A DNA stretch of 64,000 nt from Paracoccaceae bacterium (GTDB lineage Bacteria > Pseudomonadota > Alphaproteobacteria > Rhodobacterales > Rhodobacteraceae). A model generated the notes under the pieces. That model made no database searches, was not told the origin of the DNA, and worked only from the letters and a program-made list of their open reading frames with translations. A program made the translations under genes and the position numbers. The DNA lies in assembly GCA_024742575.1 (NCBI GenBank), contig JANSYF010000004.1, forward strand, positions 1 through 64,000. Reading direction: 5' to 3'. Below, piece after piece: positions 23,542 through 29,804 of the stretch (position 1 is its first letter; the number at the start of each line of letters is the position of its first letter).

Positions 23542-24261
23542 ATGAGAACGATTCTGACTGCTTTGGTTGTATTGGGTGTAGGAAGTTCTCCGGCTCAGGC
23601 GCAGGAAACCTGCACCCGCGATGCGATGGTGGTGTTTGACGGTTCAGGTTCGATGGCCGAAATGGGGTTCAACCTCATGGACGAGCCACGCATCTTTGAT
23701 GCCCGCCTTGCAGTTCGAACCGTTATGCCGCAAGTCGCGCCAGCGCGTCGGCTGGGTTTGGTCACCTACGGGTTCGGGCGACGCGAAAGTTGTTCCAGCG
23801 TCGTCGTGCGATTTCCGCCTCAAGCGGATGCAGCCGACCGTATTATTTCCGAAATTGATCGGCTACATCCTGCGGGGGAAACACCGCTGACCGAGGCAAT
23901 CGCTGCAGCGGCGCAGGTGCTTGATTACGAAAACAAGCCGGGTGAGATCGTCTTGGTAACAGATGGCAAAGAAACCTGCGGTGGATCACCCTGTCAGTTG
24001 GCAGCGGATCTGGCGGCAGGGGCGGACATGACCGTCCATGTCATCGGATTTCGTGTGCGCGGCGAACATTTCGCATGGCCGGATCAGCCACAAGATGCTT
24101 TTGTCGACCCGGCCGCGCGGTGTTTGGCGGACAGGACGGGGGGAATGTATGTGCATGCTGAAACTCTGGACGATCTCATCGGTGCGATGCGCCAGACCTT
24201 AGGCTGTCAGATTCTAAGCGAGGCTACTTCCGGGCGTCCTGCCACGCGCGAGGTGCTTTGA
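23542..24261 (+). CDS. Secreted von Willebrand factor A domain protein
   Basis: 239 residues. It has a signal peptide with likely cleavage after AQA (residues about 18-20). A single vWA domain follows with the MIDAS motif DGSGSM, the Thr in ETPLTEAI and the Asp in [11 protein letters not shown]. Several Cys (CSSV, CGGSPC, RCLADRT, LGCQ) suggest periplasmic disulfides. The ligand is unknown. It is divergent from dnaB. The last 38 bases overlap the convergent pyrE gene. The ATG at 23542 gives a proper signal peptide; an upstream ATG at 23500 does not. Confidence 0.82.
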
Positions 24262-24898
24262 GGAACGCCTCTACTTCGGTTAGCGTCGCGTCGTCGAACG
24301 CGCCCTGAGCGCGGGCTTCGGCCAGCACATCCCACCAAGTGCAAAGATGGTGCAACTGCACGCCATGGTCGCCGAGTGTCTTCGTCGTTTCCGGGAAGAT
24401 GTCATAGTAAAAAATCACTGCCGTATGGCCACAGTTGGCCCCAGTTTCCCGGATCGCGTCGACAAAGCTTAGCTTTGATCCACCATCGGTGGTCAGGTCT
24501 TCGACCAGCAATACGCGCTGACCTTCGGTCATTGCTCCTTCGATGCGGGCGTTGCGGCCATAACCTTTGGGCTTTTTGCGAACATAAGTCATGGGCAGGG
24601 CCATGCGTTCCGCCACTAGCGCAGCAAAGGGAATTCCGGCGGTTTCACCACCTGCGATGTTGTCGAACGCCTCAAACCCGGCATCGCGCATCACCGTGAC
24701 GGTCAGGAAGTCCATCAGCGTCGATCGGATGCGCGGGAATGAAATCAGCTTGCGGCAGTCGATGTAGGTGGCTGAGGGCAGACCGGATGCCAGAATGAAC
24801 GGATCGTCGGGGCGAAAGTTCACCGCGCCTATTTCCAGCAGCATCCGCGCGGTCAGACGGGCAATTTCATCTTTCGGGGGATGGCTGGCAGGGATCAT
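24224..24898 (-). CDS. pyrE: Orotate phosphoribosyltransferase
   Basis: Makes OMP from orotate and PRPP in pyrimidine synthesis. 224 residues. The PRPP-binding loop [14 protein letters not shown] and [18 protein letters not shown], described by RKKPKGYG, are diagnostic. In many Rhodobacteraceae pyrE and pyrC are neighbours. Here the whole puc operon lies between them on the same strand. It overlaps the 3' end of the vWA gene by 38 bases. Confidence 0.94.
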
Positions 24899-24971
24899 CG
24901 CGGCACTCCTAATCTTTGCGCCGCTTTAGCTGGTTTCGAATGGCAGGAAAAGGGCTGCCGCAATGGTAAAT

Positions 24972-24995
24972 GGCCGGAGTCTTGTGACCCCGGCC
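24972..24995 (-). terminator. Hairpin after the puc operon
   Basis: GGCCGGAGTC-TTGT-GACCCCGGCC forms a nine-pair stem with one mismatch, eight bases downstream of the repeat-protein stop and upstream of pyrE. Only a short T-rich stretch follows on the minus strand, so it may slow rather than fully end transcription. Confidence 0.55.
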
Positions 24996-25002
24996 AAAGC
25001 TA

Positions 25003-26097
25003 TCAGGCTTTTGCCTTAGTGTGCGGGAAAATCCAATTGGCCATGTATTTATGGCCCGGCACGATGTGGGCGAACGGGAACTTGGCCATATATTTGTGAC
25101 CCGGTACGATGTGGGCGAACGGGAATTTGGCCATGTATTTGTGACCCGGTACGATGTGGGCGAACGGGAATTTGGCCATGTATTTGTGACCCGGCACGAT
25201 GTGGGCGAACGGGAATTTGGCCATGTATTTGTGACCCGGCACAAGGTGAGCGAACGGAAACTTGGCCATGAATTTGTGGCCCGGCACAAGCGAGTTCGTG
25301 TGCTTCTTGCCGTTGATCAGAAGTGGGAAGGGCCAGTTCGCCATGCGCATATGCCCAGGCACCAGATGGCCGAATGGGAATTTCGCCATGAACTTGTGGC
25401 CTGGCACAATATGGCCGAATGGGAATTTGGCCATATGTTTGTGGCCCGGCACGATATGCGCGAACGGGAATTTGGCCATATATTTGTGCCCTGGCACGAT
25501 ATGTCCGAACGGAAATTTCGCCATGAATTTCTGGCCAGGGACCAAAAGGCCGAACGGAAAACGACCAAAGCGAATGCTACCCGGCAACAATAGATCAATC
25601 GGCCATTTTGCCATCCGTCCATGCCGTTTGATCACCATTTGATCGCTTGGTTTGCGACGGCTGATCAGTGGGATGGGCCAATTGGCCATGTAGTGGTTGT
25701 TATCCGAAGGGTCTTTGCGGCGGCTCAGCATATAAGGGTGGTCGCTTAGAACACTTAGTCCGCGCCCGTGCTGATCCTTTACAAATACCTCTTGATCGAG
25801 GCCGCCCATATCGACCGCACCATAGTCGGCAGCGACAGTACGGGTGATTTTGGCCACGCCTAGCGGTTTGTATTTGCCGCGCACCATGAGAACGGCGCCG
25901 CCGGATGCCAATTTCGTTGCATATGCATCGGCGGTGTCAGGCAACACATTCGCGGTTTGCAAGCGGTCTGCAACCCCGTCAGAGCCTTTGTAGATATGGA
26001 TGATGTCGGGGGACACCTTGTGGGTGTAAATCAATTCGCGTTTCGCGGACTGTGCCTGATCTGCGCTATCGAAGTACCGTGTGATTATCGTTGTCAT
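25003..26097 (-). CDS. 15-residue-repeat protein, last gene of the puc operon (unknown function)
   Basis: 364 residues in three parts. Residues 1 to about 110 form a small alpha/beta domain (ITRYFDSADQAQSAKRELI ... GGAVLMVRGKYKPLGVAKI) that faintly recalls YflT/general-stress-protein-17M domains. Residues 111-161 are a linker with HYMANWPIPLI. Residues 162-351 are a tandem array of eleven 15-residue units plus one 25-residue variant, consensus MAKFPFAHIVPGHKY. The end is MANWIFPH. Most units carry two His. There is no signal peptide and no clear membrane helix. The ATG overlaps the pucC stop (ATGA), so it is coupled to LH2 assembly. It is not recognisable as PucD or PucE of Rhodobacter. A role in LH2 assembly, pigment handling or photoprotection is inferred from context only. 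Confidence 0.8.
   Translation of the reverse strand: MTTIITRYFDSADQAQSAKRELIYTHKVSPDIIHIYKGSDGVADRLQTANVLPDTADAYATKLASGGAVLMVRGKYKPLGVAKITRTVAADYGAVDMGGLDQEVFVKDQHGRGLSVLSDHPYMLSRRKDPSDNNHYMANWPIPLISRRKPSDQMVIKRHGRMAKWPIDLLLPGSIRFGRFPFGLLVPGQKFMAKFPFGHIVPGHKYMAKFPFAHIVPGHKHMAKFPFGHIVPGHKFMAKFPFGHLVPGHMRMANWPFPLLINGKKHTNSLVPGHKFMAKFPFAHLVPGHKYMAKFPFAHIVPGHKYMAKFPFAHIVPGHKYMAKFPFAHIVPGHKYMAKFPFAHIVPGHKYMANWIFPHTKAKA
25045..25614 (-). repeat. 45-bp in-frame tandem repeat array
   Basis: Twelve direct repeats, eleven of 45 bp and one of 75 bp, coding for the 15-residue units of the puc-operon repeat protein. The units between 25045 and about 25270 differ by only a few bases from each other. Those nearer 25614 are more diverged at third positions, which suggests recent expansion at the 3' end of the gene. 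Confidence 0.9.
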
Positions 26098-27536
26098 GGT
26101 GCCTCCACCGGGTTGGATTGCGTTGGTGCTGCAGCACGTGTGGCTTTAGAAAAACCACCCCGGCCCGCGAGCGGGAAAACAAGGAAAACGGCAATCACGA
26201 GGAACGCCATCTCCATTGAGAATACTACATTGTAGGGTGTTTCGACCGAAAGACCATTTTCGTCAGCGGGCAAAGCCACAATGAGATCGCGGACCCAACC
26301 CGCCAAGGCCATGCCGATACCGGCGGCCGTAGCTTGCACGCTGCCCCACGCGCCAAGCGCAAGGCCGACTTTTTCTTTTGGTGCGGCACGCATTGTCGCC
26401 GTAAGCGTGGAGTGGCCAAACAGTCCGGCACCTATGCCGATCAGCAGCGTTCCAGCCAGAAACGCAGCGGTGCCGCCGCCATAGGCTGAAAATATGATCG
26501 CGGCAAAACCGGGGATGCCGATCATCGCGCCTGTCATCGATGTGACCGAAGGCACGCCACCATTGCTGAGTGTGCGCGATGCGATCCCGAAGCCAAGCAG
26601 CGTACCACCTGCCAGAAGGGCAGTGAGTTTTGTCGTGCTGGCGACCGACAGGCCAAGCGCTTCGCCGCCATAAGGTTCAAGCAGGACATCCGCCATGCCA
26701 AAGCCGAATGTCCCAACGGCGATCACGATCAAAAGCCGCAACATGCCCGCGTTCTGTATGAGCTGCGCCCACGCATCGCGGAAGGAAATGTCGGGGGCTG
26801 CGGCCATGGCTTGGGCGCGAACACGATCGCGCGCCTCTTGCTTCCACATAGCAAGAAAGTTCAGGGCAACGGTCACAACAGCTGTGCCTTGGATCACTTG
26901 GATCAGGCGTCCGGGGGAATAATTTTCGAGCAAAGTTCCATAGATGATCGCGCTAAGGACCATGCCGAACAGCAACATCACGTACATCAGACCGACCACT
27001 TTGGGCTGATCCACTTCGTCGACAAGGTCCGTCGCCAAGGCGAGGCCAACGGTCTGCACCATGTGCACGCCCGCGCCGACCAGGAGGAAGGACAGTCCGG
27101 CGGAACTGTACCCGATCCAAAGCGGGGCATCGAAGGCCTCGCCATAGCCGGAGAGGACCAGCAGGGCGAAGGGCATGATGGCAAAGCCACCGAACTGGTA
27201 CAGCGTGCCTTTCCAGATATAGGGCAGGCGCCGCAGACCCAGCGCGGATTTGTGCACATCCGACTTGAAGCCGATCAATGCACGGAAGGGGGCAAAGATG
27301 ATGGGCAAGGCCAGCATCGTGCCGACAAGGCTTGCCGGAACGGACAATTCGACAATCATCACACGATTCAGGGTTCCGACCAGCAGAACCAGCGCCATAC
27401 CGACGGTCACTTGAAACAGCGACAGACGCAACAGACGCGACAGTGGCACAGAGTCCGACGCGACATCTGCGAAAGGCAGGTAGCGCGGGCCAATGGTCGC
27501 CAGTTTGTGCAGAACGATGCGACGGTAGTCGTACAT
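26094..27536 (-). CDS. pucC: LH2 assembly protein PucC
   Basis: 480-residue MFS-type membrane protein of the PucC/LhaA/BCH2 family with about twelve membrane segments. It helps assemble peripheral antenna complexes, possibly by handling bacteriochlorophyll or antenna apoproteins. Family features include the cytoplasmic-loop motif around residues 73-95 (RALIGFKSDVHKSALGLRRLPY, described by GFKSDVH and LGLRR), GVHMVQTVGLALATDL and LFGHSTLTATM. It is encoded 110 bases downstream of pucA after a strong hairpin. Its stop overlaps the start of the repeat protein. Confidence 0.93.
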   Translation of the reverse strand: MYDYRRIVLHKLATIGPRYLPFADVASDSVPLSRLLRLSLFQVTVGMALVLLVGTLNRVMIVELSVPASLVGTMLALPIIFAPFRALIGFKSDVHKSALGLRRLPYIWKGTLYQFGGFAIMPFALLVLSGYGEAFDAPLWIGYSSAGLSFLLVGAGVHMVQTVGLALATDLVDEVDQPKVVGLMYVMLLFGMVLSAIIYGTLLENYSPGRLIQVIQGTAVVTVALNFLAMWKQEARDRVRAQAMAAAPDISFRDAWAQLIQNAGMLRLLIVIAVGTFGFGMADVLLEPYGGEALGLSVASTTKLTALLAGGTLLGFGIASRTLSNGGVPSVTSMTGAMIGIPGFAAIIFSAYGGGTAAFLAGTLLIGIGAGLFGHSTLTATMRAAPKEKVGLALGAWGSVQATAAGIGMALAGWVRDLIVALPADENGLSVETPYNVVFSMEMAFLVIAVFLVFPLAGRGGFSKATRAAAPTQSNPVEAP

Positions 27537-27646: not shown

Positions 27647-27967
27647 TTACAATTCGGGTTGTAACTGTGATGGCTGGATCAACGCTTGGGTCGATGTGCC
27701 ATCAGGTAGGATGATGGTCACAGCCAAGCTGCCATCGGTCTGCGGAACCACATAACTTGCTTTCGCGGTGTTCGCCTCGGGGGCGAGCATCGTTGCAGCT
27801 GCCATGTCACCGGAACCCAATTCCTGACCAGACAGGAAATCAGCAACCCACGAAGTGTTGCTAAGAACAGCGACGTGCACTGCAAAGGATCCAACGGCGA
27901 CCGCGCCAAGGAATACGGGAACGCCCACCGCTGGGGGGACGACGAGCCACATTTTTGCGTTATTCAT
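27647..27967 (-). CDS. pucA: Light-harvesting LH2 alpha subunit
   Basis: 106 residues. The first 50 are a classical LH2 alpha chain: NNAKMWLVVPPAVGVPVFL, one membrane helix, His31 (GSFAVHVAV) as the bacteriochlorophyll ligand, then WVADFLSG. Positions 44-45 are Phe-Leu, where B800-850 complexes have Tyr-Tyr or Tyr-Trp; Phe-Leu is the B800-820 (LH3) pattern. Residues about 50-106 are an extra hydrophilic tail absent from typical 50-60 residue alpha chains. GGGAG lies 7-11 bases before the ATG. It begins 12 bases after the pucB stop. Confidence 0.93.
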   Translation of the reverse strand: MNNAKMWLVVPPAVGVPVFLGAVAVGSFAVHVAVLSNTSWVADFLSGQELGSGDMAAATMLAPEANTAKASYVVPQTDGSLAVTIILPDGTSTQALIQPSQLQPEL

Positions 27968-28270: not shown

Positions 28271-28288
28271 TGTAATAAAAAACTGACA
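28271..28288. promoter_or_regulatory. PpsR/CrtJ box 1 (puc promoter)
   Basis: TGT-N12-ACA (TGTAATAAAAAACTGACA), the binding consensus of the redox- and light-responsive photosynthesis repressor PpsR/CrtJ, 133 bases upstream of pucB. Confidence 0.78.
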
Positions 28289-28296
28289 GTGGCAAT

Positions 28297-28314
28297 TGTA
28301 ATCTTAAGTTTACA
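28297..28314. promoter_or_regulatory. PpsR/CrtJ box 2 (puc promoter)
   Basis: TGT-N12-ACA (TGTAATCTTAAGTTTACA), separated from box 1 by exactly 8 bases. Tandem boxes 8 bp apart are the classical cooperative arrangement for PpsR/CrtJ. Confidence 0.8.
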
Positions 28315-28763: not shown

Positions 28764-29804
28764 TTAGCCGACAACCCGCCAGTGCAGCGGCATCATTGGA
28801 TCAAAAACCGTAACGACACCATCGCCGGTGTCGATGTGATCAGGGTAGGTGACTGGTTCGCCCTTGGTCAGAGTGATTGTGCCTTCATTCGCCGGCAAGC
28901 CATAGAACTTGGGGCCATTGAAGCTGGTGAATGCTTCCAGTCGATCAAGAGCGCCGTCCTGTTCAAACACTTCCGCCAAGATGGACAGCGTGTTTGTTGC
29001 AGTGAAACATCCTGCACAGCCGCAAGGTAACAATTTGTTGGCATCCGTATGAGGTGCGCTGTCGGTACCAAGAAAAAATGTGGGATCGCCGCTGGTGGCT
29101 GCCCGGCGCAGGGCAAGACGGTGCTCTTCGCGCTTGGCGACCGGCAAACAGTAGTAGTGCGGTTTGATCCCCCCAGCGAGGATGTGGTTGCGATTGATCA
29201 CCAGATGGTGCGTCGTAATTGTGGCTCCCAGTTCGGGACCACCTTCTGACGCGTATTCCACACCCTGCATCGTCGTGATGTGCTCCATCACCACACGCAG
29301 GCCTGGTGTCGCGCGACGGATCGGATCAAGCACACGTTCGATGAACACTGCTTCGCGGTCGAAGATATCGATATCGCTGTCAACGACTTCGCCATGCACA
29401 CAAAGTGGACAACCGATCTCGGCCATCTTCTCCAGCACGGGCCGCACCTTGTCGAAGTTGGCGACACCTGAGGCTGAGTTTGTGGTGGCGCCTGCCGGAT
29501 ATAGCTTCACGGCGGTGATCAACCCGTCGGCATGGGCGCGGGCCAAATCCTCTGGGTCCGTGTCCTCGGTCAGATATAAAGTCATCAGCGGCGTAAACGC
29601 TGATCCCTCTGGCAGGGCTGACAATATACGATCTCGATACGATGCTGCCTCTGCGCCCGTAACAACGGGAGGCACAAGGTTGGGCATGATAATCGCGCGT
29701 GCAAAATGCCGAGCGGTTTCAGGGGCCACGGCACGCAACATTGCGCCATCGCGCAGGTGCAGGTGCCAGTCGTCGGGTGTGCGGATTGTGATCGTATCGG
29801 TCAT
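28764..29804 (-). CDS. pyrC: Dihydroorotase (class II)
   Basis: Closes carbamoyl aspartate to dihydroorotate. 346 residues, the length of the E. coli-type zinc enzyme. Metal-ligand motifs are [10 protein letters not shown] near the N-terminus, the carbamylated Lys in [13 protein letters not shown], and the His in CVHGEV and MEHITT; the catalytic Asp is in GTDSAPH. Same orientation as pyrE but separated from it by the puc operon. Confidence 0.95.

Follow-up and report, generated by a model that had tools for sequence, protein, structure and literature searches.

The puc operon of the analysed genome ends with a gene, here named X, whose product carries an array of short tandem repeats behind a small N-terminal head and represents an overlooked protein beside the antenna genes of many phototrophic bacteria. 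LH2 is a textbook antenna that is usually drawn as alpha and beta polypeptides with their pigments. The association of X with LH2 is strong, and we are inclined, though by no means firmly, to regard X as a dedicated accessory subunit of LH2, acting in the manner of LH2-gamma, the ribbon protein of Rhodopseudomonas palustris.

The repeat gene at the end of the puc operon

Within the window, i.e. the whole stretch of 64,000 nucleotides that was analysed, the genes are arranged in the order pucB-pucA-pucC-X, and the ATG start codon of X shares 4 bp (ATGA) with the stop codon of pucC (Table 1). The 364-residue reading frame, its minus-strand coordinates and this overlap had been given by the first-pass annotation and were all correct on re-check. 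The best NCBIfam model for pucB bears the name LH1 beta. The operon is flanked by housekeeping genes, as it lies between two open reading frames (24224-24898 and 28764-29804) that we take, by their translations, to be pyrE and pyrC. Two adjacent sites upstream of pucB follow the TGT-N12-ACA pattern, presumably the PpsR/CrtJ motif; since 14 such sites occur in the whole window against 11 expected by chance, only their pairing and location make the sites at 28271-28314 suggestive. The puc operon of Dinoroseobacter shibae comprises the four loci Dshi_2897-2900, the expression of which is increased in a ppsR mutant (PMC10890935), and PucC has been described as an LH2 assembly protein (PMC4949548).

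An inverted repeat (GGCCGG...CCGGCC) that lacks a T run lies just 3' of X, at approximately 24970-25000; it is absent from the list of the terminator scan and may represent the transcript end. The plus strand contains an open frame of 190 aa (25021-25593) that is antisense to the array of X and shows 15-residue repeats of its own as a by-product of the 45-base repeat. The source genome contains a single X gene, the second match being the antisense of the same array.

Table 1. Features of the puc operon and of the X protein in the window
Feature	Coordinates	Strand	Evidence
X, repeat-ribbon gene, 364 aa	25003..26097	-	ORF, dN/dS, homologues
X head, residues 1-98, YflT-like alpha/beta domain	25804..26097	-	AlphaFold2; Pfam YflT matches of relatives; profile searches
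X linker, residues 99-136, mostly conserved LSVL..HP..L motif	25690..25803	-	alignment
First 25-residue unit, residues 137-161, MANWPIPLISRRKPSDQMVIKRHGR	25615..25689	-	unit segmentation
Six 15-residue units, residues 162-251	25345..25614	-	segmentation, Tandem Repeats Finder
Special 25-residue unit, residues 252-276, MANWPFPLLINGKKHTNSLVPGHKF	25270..25344	-	unit segmentation
Five 15-residue units, residues 277-351	25045..25269	-	segmentation, Tandem Repeats Finder
Truncated C-terminal cap, residues 352-364 (13 residues), MANWIFPHTKAKA	25006..25044	-	unit segmentation
pucC, LH2 assembly protein	26094..27536	-	Pfam PUCC E 6.6e-144
pucA, LH2 alpha, 106 aa, long C-terminal extension	27647..27967	-	Pfam LHC E 1.9e-11; solved relatives are LH2 alpha chains
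pucB, LH2 beta, 52 aa	27980..28138	-	NCBIfam NF040862 E 2e-17; adjoins pucA and pucC
Two adjacent TGT-N12-ACA sites, PpsR/CrtJ-like, upstream of pucB	28271-28288, 28297-28314		motif scan

At the DNA level, Tandem Repeats Finder detected the array as two blocks of period 45, one with 5.6 copies and a 93% match (score 411) and the other with 4.5 copies and an 81% match (score 224). The tandem array that had been annotated in residues 162-351 was retained, and segmentation into units corrected its count from twelve units to eleven 15-residue units plus one 25-residue unit. Most units indeed carry two histidines, as at least two are present in 9 of the 11 15-residue units of the window. Residues 128-364 have a net charge of +30 (K+R minus D+E), many aromatic residues and 24 histidines, and the most hydrophobic 19-residue stretch of X reaches a value of only 1.07 on the Kyte-Doolittle scale, so that X has no membrane helix. 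A counterpart of the special unit is found at the corresponding place in all 25 segmented long members of the family. Unlike many family members, the X protein of the window is devoid of a C-terminal FS..GxPT unit.

The small N-terminal alpha/beta domain was also predicted by AlphaFold2, with a pLDDT of at least 70 for 80 of 127 residues and of mostly less than 50 for residues 99-127. With a five-row alignment, the elements of the head follow the order b-a-b-a-a-b-a at a mean pLDDT of 68.5, the block means ranging from 62 to 88 in residues 1-100. The structure prediction of the array that the annotation had proposed was run on the whole protein and returned a confident fold for the head only, the array having a pLDDT of about 25 and no structure; this low value is not evidence of an extended ribbon.

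The reading frame of X is under purifying selection. A comparison with L001, a close relative of the same length and 88% identity, revealed an overall dN/dS of 0.072/0.82, with a dN of 0.032 and a dS of 0.82 in residues 162-351 and a dN of 0.154 and a dS of 0.92 in residues 1-127. According to these lower dN values, the repeats are the more constrained part of X; gene conversion among the units could contribute to their low divergence.

In agreement with the view that X belongs to no recognised family, the window protein has no accepted Pfam or NCBIfam family, as nothing was detected in NCBIfam at E<=1 and the Pfam match to adenovirus hexon was rejected as lying below the cut-off (E 0.023). 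No description of X was found in the open-licence literature, a search scope outside of which subscription journals mostly fall. Of 43 heads, 10 matched the Pfam domain YflT (PF11181) at E<=1, the lowest E-value being 4.8e-4, and the window head was not among them. The same 43 heads produced only scattered single matches in NCBIfam (best E 0.0053), and a Foldseek search of the PDB with the head gave no match at E<=0.001. De novo designed TIM barrels that matched the 43-row head profile A3 (E down to 1.1e-5) were dismissed as summed weak matches to designed repeats. A tblastn search of plasmids with the whole X protein resulted in 577 records, all with less than 60% identity; among the 40 matches listed, only residues 144-355 were covered, and the annotations were mostly LPD7-domain or TraC proteins of enterobacteria. 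These records were taken as low-complexity noise, since the head alone found no plasmid match.

Occurrence in Rhodobacteraceae and in other families

A first search yielded homologues of X in 13 of 61 genomes, including the source genome. With the head profile A2, matches were obtained in 48 of 394 genomes of the Rhodobacteraceae, the family of the window; the window head scored an E-value of 5.2e-65 as a row of the query alignment. The PUCC domain (PF03209, E<=1e-40) is present in 168 of the 394 genomes, and the number of PUCC matches per genome served as a proxy for LH2. Both counts refer to the same genome sample by genome labels, and the tables were tallied by eye. All 48 head-bearing genomes are PUCC-positive, and the head occurs in 44 of the 53 genomes with at least three PUCC matches, in 4 of 115 with one or two and in none of the 226 without any, so that homologues are not common in non-phototrophs away from puc genes.

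The 53 head pieces correspond to 52 genes, as two pieces belong to one broken gene (L085). The survey of gene neighbourhoods, suggested earlier as a check for co-occurrence with puc genes, placed 48 of the 52 X genes directly 3' of pucC, and 26 of these 48 start with a 4-bp (-4) overlap. The 48 genes include the broken L085, in which both pucC and X are fragmented, and L115, which is broken beside a short N run; these cases suggest decaying puc operons or assembly faults. In one genome a tandem second copy was observed (L080), so that pucC is followed by two X genes, one long and one short. Three long X genes (L070, L082 and L083) are without nearby puc genes in the piece examined, L082 being located 1.1 kb from the contig start. 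The respective genomes also hold a short, pucC-linked copy of X, and LH1 is a possible partner of the three long products. Inspection by eye of seven Rhodobacter-like puc loci (L116-L122), representing all but two (G179, G405) of the nine genomes with at least three PUCC matches and no head match, revealed no X-like open reading frame 3' of pucC.

The LH2 alpha polypeptide has a length of 98-123 aa in 43 of the 45 X-bearing Rhodobacteraceae loci with a whole alpha, including the window, and of 52-67 aa in all six X-less loci where an alpha was found. The C-terminal extension of these alphas comprises about 50-70 residues, among which an (I/V)xLPDGTxAxAxL-like motif is often present, L112 and L114 being short exceptions. 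As a partner of X, the extension was rejected, because seven of eight X relatives from other families are accompanied by alphas of only 47-61 aa and because the extension is presumably periplasmic according to the topology of the polypeptide.

The profile A3 matched 29 of 385 genomes of the class at E<=0.01, including the source genome. Eight of the 30 non-own places (L135, L136, L138-L141, L143 and L152) lie no more than a few kb from pucB and pucA, and seven of them also have pucC nearby; L135 and L136 have their LH genes on the opposite strand from the X relative. The pieces examined around the other 22 places contain no pucA, pucB or pucC; one of these proteins (L162) showed no domain on re-scan and many others resemble ordinary YflT-type proteins. 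The profile A6, built from the eight other-family members except L135, matched 6 of 349 genomes of the phylum at E<=1e-4. Three matches (G417, G275 and G282) are genes already found in pucC loci, and the others (G981, G1075 and G435) are likewise puc-linked, with the order pucB-pucA-X-pucC in G435. The genomes newly contributed by the phylum search are thus G435 and two Rhodobacteraceae in which X adjoins pucC. In L138-L141, L143, L152 and G435, X follows pucA, not pucC.

The heads of the two groups are homologous, as the profiles A3 and A6 aligned with an hhalign probability of 98.4 (E 6e-15). Moreover, the last 22 residues of the Rhodobacteraceae proteins match those of the eight other-family proteins with z 7.6 for 19 long 25-residue members and z 11.5 for 31 short ones. 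This comparison was made by position, not by motif, and none of 200 column permutations reached the scores; truncated, broken, 15-residue and mixed members were left out. L005, which covers part of the protein only, was not used in the analysis. The C-terminal 22 residues of 12 control proteins, chosen by eye as YflT-type from 21 non-puc proteins of the class, did not match the other-family proteins (z -0.8). The links from the window to the Rhodobacteraceae family and from there to the other-family members are strong.

Repeat units and apparent array exchange

Most long members are built of 25-residue units, and exactly seven units and a tail are present in all 19 complete 25-residue arrays (truncated members L072, L073 and L079 not counted), the first unit of L077 having 26 residues. 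Together with the MAD..LPL and FS..GxPT segments of most tails, the seven units amount to nine motif copies, and we infer that these are matched to nine alpha/beta pairs. Alignment of the LH2 alpha of the window starts at residue 1 with each of its 11 solved relatives (E<=0.001), nine of which are listed with nine chains in one entry, one with three chains and one with 15 chains over three entries. The 15-residue members contain 13-14 units, the window having 14 MA-like units. Four of the five 15-residue arrays share the plan 25 + 6x15 + 25 + 5x15 + 13 to 15, the fifth (L083) has four units in the second half, and L004 is mixed, with 25-residue units preceding 15-residue units.

Among 122 units of the 25-residue type (L070 left out), one histidine is conserved in 98% and a serine at position 10 in 93%; the 15-residue units have no conserved serine. 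The eight other-family proteins contain 0-2 histidines after residue 100. The term histidine-rich, under which X had been annotated, therefore fails as a family trait, paired histidines being confined to the 15-residue variant. Metal binding or storage by histidines, one of the roles that had been considered, is accordingly unlikely as a family function, and the suggested role with LH2 gains from the pucC linkage and the co-occurrence.

By sequence comparison, the window protein combines an array of the 15-residue variant with the kind of head that 25-residue relatives typically have. The 25-residue member L010 shares 84% identity with the window in the head and 95% in PucC but only 45% in the array, whereas L003 is 36% identical in the head and 84% in the array. 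In a head tree of 59 rows, from which L085, L115, L109 and L070 (the same gene as L003) were left out, the distribution of the 15-residue label requires no fewer than four changes along branches with good support, with a bootstrap that is not fully settled. An exchange of the array that did not involve the head seems to have occurred; as most of the distant pairs are close to or at saturation in their synonymous sites, these data do not demonstrate recent transfer.

Proposed role and comparison with known systems

The LH2-gamma polypeptide of Rps. palustris runs along the cytoplasmic side of LH2 as an extended ribbon, encloses six of the nine alpha/beta pairs and contains six repeats of about 15-16 residues, each holding one bacteriochlorophyll (BChl) through a serine, so that six extra BChls are present in the complex (PMC9618040). 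Gamma stays in the purified LH2 complex, and according to its authors it was found in Rhodopseudomonas only (PMC9618040). It is encoded by RPA1495, a locus number close to those of pucBAe (RPA1491/1492) (PMC5069747), and X likewise has its gene near LH2 genes, in the order pucBAC-X.

A class-wide search with gamma matched 3 of 372 genomes. The matches in G726 (an antisense low-complexity frame) and G548 (a frame with three stops) were discarded; since both have better E-values than the array of the G653 protein (L143, E 0.0065), the latter E-value alone is worth little. Within the family and order of G732 and G653, which comprise the same 17 genomes, one match was obtained. In the reverse direction, L143 was compared with 177,635 PDB sequences and found LH2-gamma as its best match (E 0.0062, the next at 0.8). 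The alignment of the two proteins follows the 16-residue period, with z 12.6 against shuffles and z 7.0 (0/300) under a period-keeping null. Under the same null, the mean for gamma is 2.9 with the eight other-family arrays, 0.69 with 63 Rhodobacteraceae arrays and -0.30 with the 12 controls; pieces of less than 40 residues were left out of these comparisons, and the 63 rows include truncated members and L070 beside L003.

The window array did not match the gamma repeats (EYKGHSGHPLILKQEG-like), with z -0.7 against shuffles and -0.3 under the period-keeping null, and neither the window X protein nor the A6 profile detected a PDB chain at E<=1. Similarly, the search with L140 did not return gamma at E<=10, and A6 aligned with gamma at an hhalign probability of only 4.8. 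A profile of gamma units gave z 1.7 (20/300) with 25-residue and z -0.5 with 15-residue units, comparisons that are weakened by the selection of the 'short' and 'other' units with a motif regular expression. The positional C-terminal test avoids this bias, and the last 22 residues of gamma showed no match clearly over chance in it (z 1.0-1.4). As the window array has neither a gamma match nor serine ligands, X was not filed as gamma. The link from the other-family members to gamma is moderate on these alignments and comes mainly from one protein; common descent is not proven, as convergent LH2-binding repeats would look alike.

In the mechanism that we propose, X would be translated together with PucC, and its cationic array of proline and aromatic residues, unfolded alone, would be added to the cytoplasmic side of the ring of alpha/beta pairs while LH2 is assembled. 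There it would form an extended ribbon, with consecutive units touching consecutive alpha/beta pairs and the YflT-like head reaching into the cytoplasm. Each unit probably holds one extra monomeric BChl a absorbing near 800 nm, with a histidine as the presumed ligand in the 15-residue form and serine or histidine in the 25-residue form; a gamma-like ligand role of the serine at position 10 is hypothetical. Ring binding, extended conformation, the stoichiometry of one unit per pair, BChl binding and the function of the head are all deduced. A B800-type role is suggested by analogy with gamma and, provided that X occurs in these organisms, by absorption bands close to 800 nm in several Roseobacters, such as those of D. 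shibae at 804 nm, beside one at 868 nm (PMC10890935), and of Roseobacter litoralis at 806 nm (PMC12654162, review table). The 13-14 units of the 15-residue members do not fit nine alpha/beta pairs and speak against one unit per pair.

The linkage to pucC can also be read in terms of an assembly factor that acts with PucC: the array would gather nascent alpha/beta pairs on the cytoplasmic side, its units would set their number, and X would leave the finished ring. This explanation is rather unlikely, although it would account for the translational coupling and the adjacency to pucC of 48 of the 52 genes, for a cationic array without a membrane helix and for the near-fixed number of units, since the array of a distant member resembles gamma, which is retained in the purified complex, and since X occupies a subunit-like place after pucA, not pucC, in the seven other-family loci named above. 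It is quite improbable that X organises the photosynthetic membrane, its array binding anionic lipids or neighbouring LH2 rings and thereby packing or curving the membrane: the charge and aromatic content of residues 128-364 and the 15-residue arrays exceeding the length of nine 16-residue steps would suit such a function, but a lipid binder needs neither a fixed unit number nor a conserved special unit. A carrier or store of pigment, heme or metal outside the LH2 structure, with the paired histidines as ligands, is the least credible reading despite the 24 histidines of the window array, as the pairs occur in the 15-residue variant only, one histidine is conserved in the 25-residue units, the other-family proteins have next to none and, in a store, one would expect drift in the number of units.

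The presence of X in 44 of the 53 genomes with at least three PUCC matches, and of its relatives beside pucBA in several other alphaproteobacterial families, suggests that an accessory ribbon may be common and that LH2 purified from Roseobacters may hold an overlooked subunit. Additional BChl could then have a share in the 800-806 nm bands of aerobic phototrophs. It is a tentative and doubtful extension that X represents a widespread second kind of bacterial antenna subunit, i.e. a ribbon with a near-fixed unit number behind a cytoplasmic head that fully encircles LH2, the nine motif copies of the 25-residue form serving nine alpha/beta pairs, and that supplies a further ring of BChl a, bound by His or Ser and absorbing at about 800-806 nm. 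If true, this would help to account for the 800-806 nm bands of Roseobacter-type LH2. The 15-residue form, with 14 MA-like units in the window, would then extend beyond a single ring and could connect adjacent rings, and the unit type could be an exchangeable module, as heads appear to have been kept while their arrays were replaced. X may also provide a system to study how the number of repeat units is matched to a ring.

Compared with known systems, the heads of the X family show weak but repeated matches to the YflT or general stress protein 17M domain (PF11181), whereas the generic YflT proteins detected class-wide by A3 have neither a puc gene nearby nor an X-like array. PucD and PucE of Rhodobacter capsulatus are, like X, encoded 3' of pucC in a puc operon. 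Extra polypeptides outside the LH ring are known as the LH1 gamma of Blastochloris viridis and the gamma-like polypeptides of Rpi. globiformis (PMC10214105); in these cases many small polypeptides per ring touch beta, whereas X is one repeat chain. LH2-gamma (RPA1495; PDB 7zcu chain S) is, like X, a short-repeat protein, the repeats measuring 15 or 25 residues in X and 16 in gamma. Gamma is a chain of 97 aa that comprises six repeats and lacks a head, whereas X has a predicted folded head of residues 1 to about 98, and the serine ligand of gamma is without counterpart in the 15-residue units of X.
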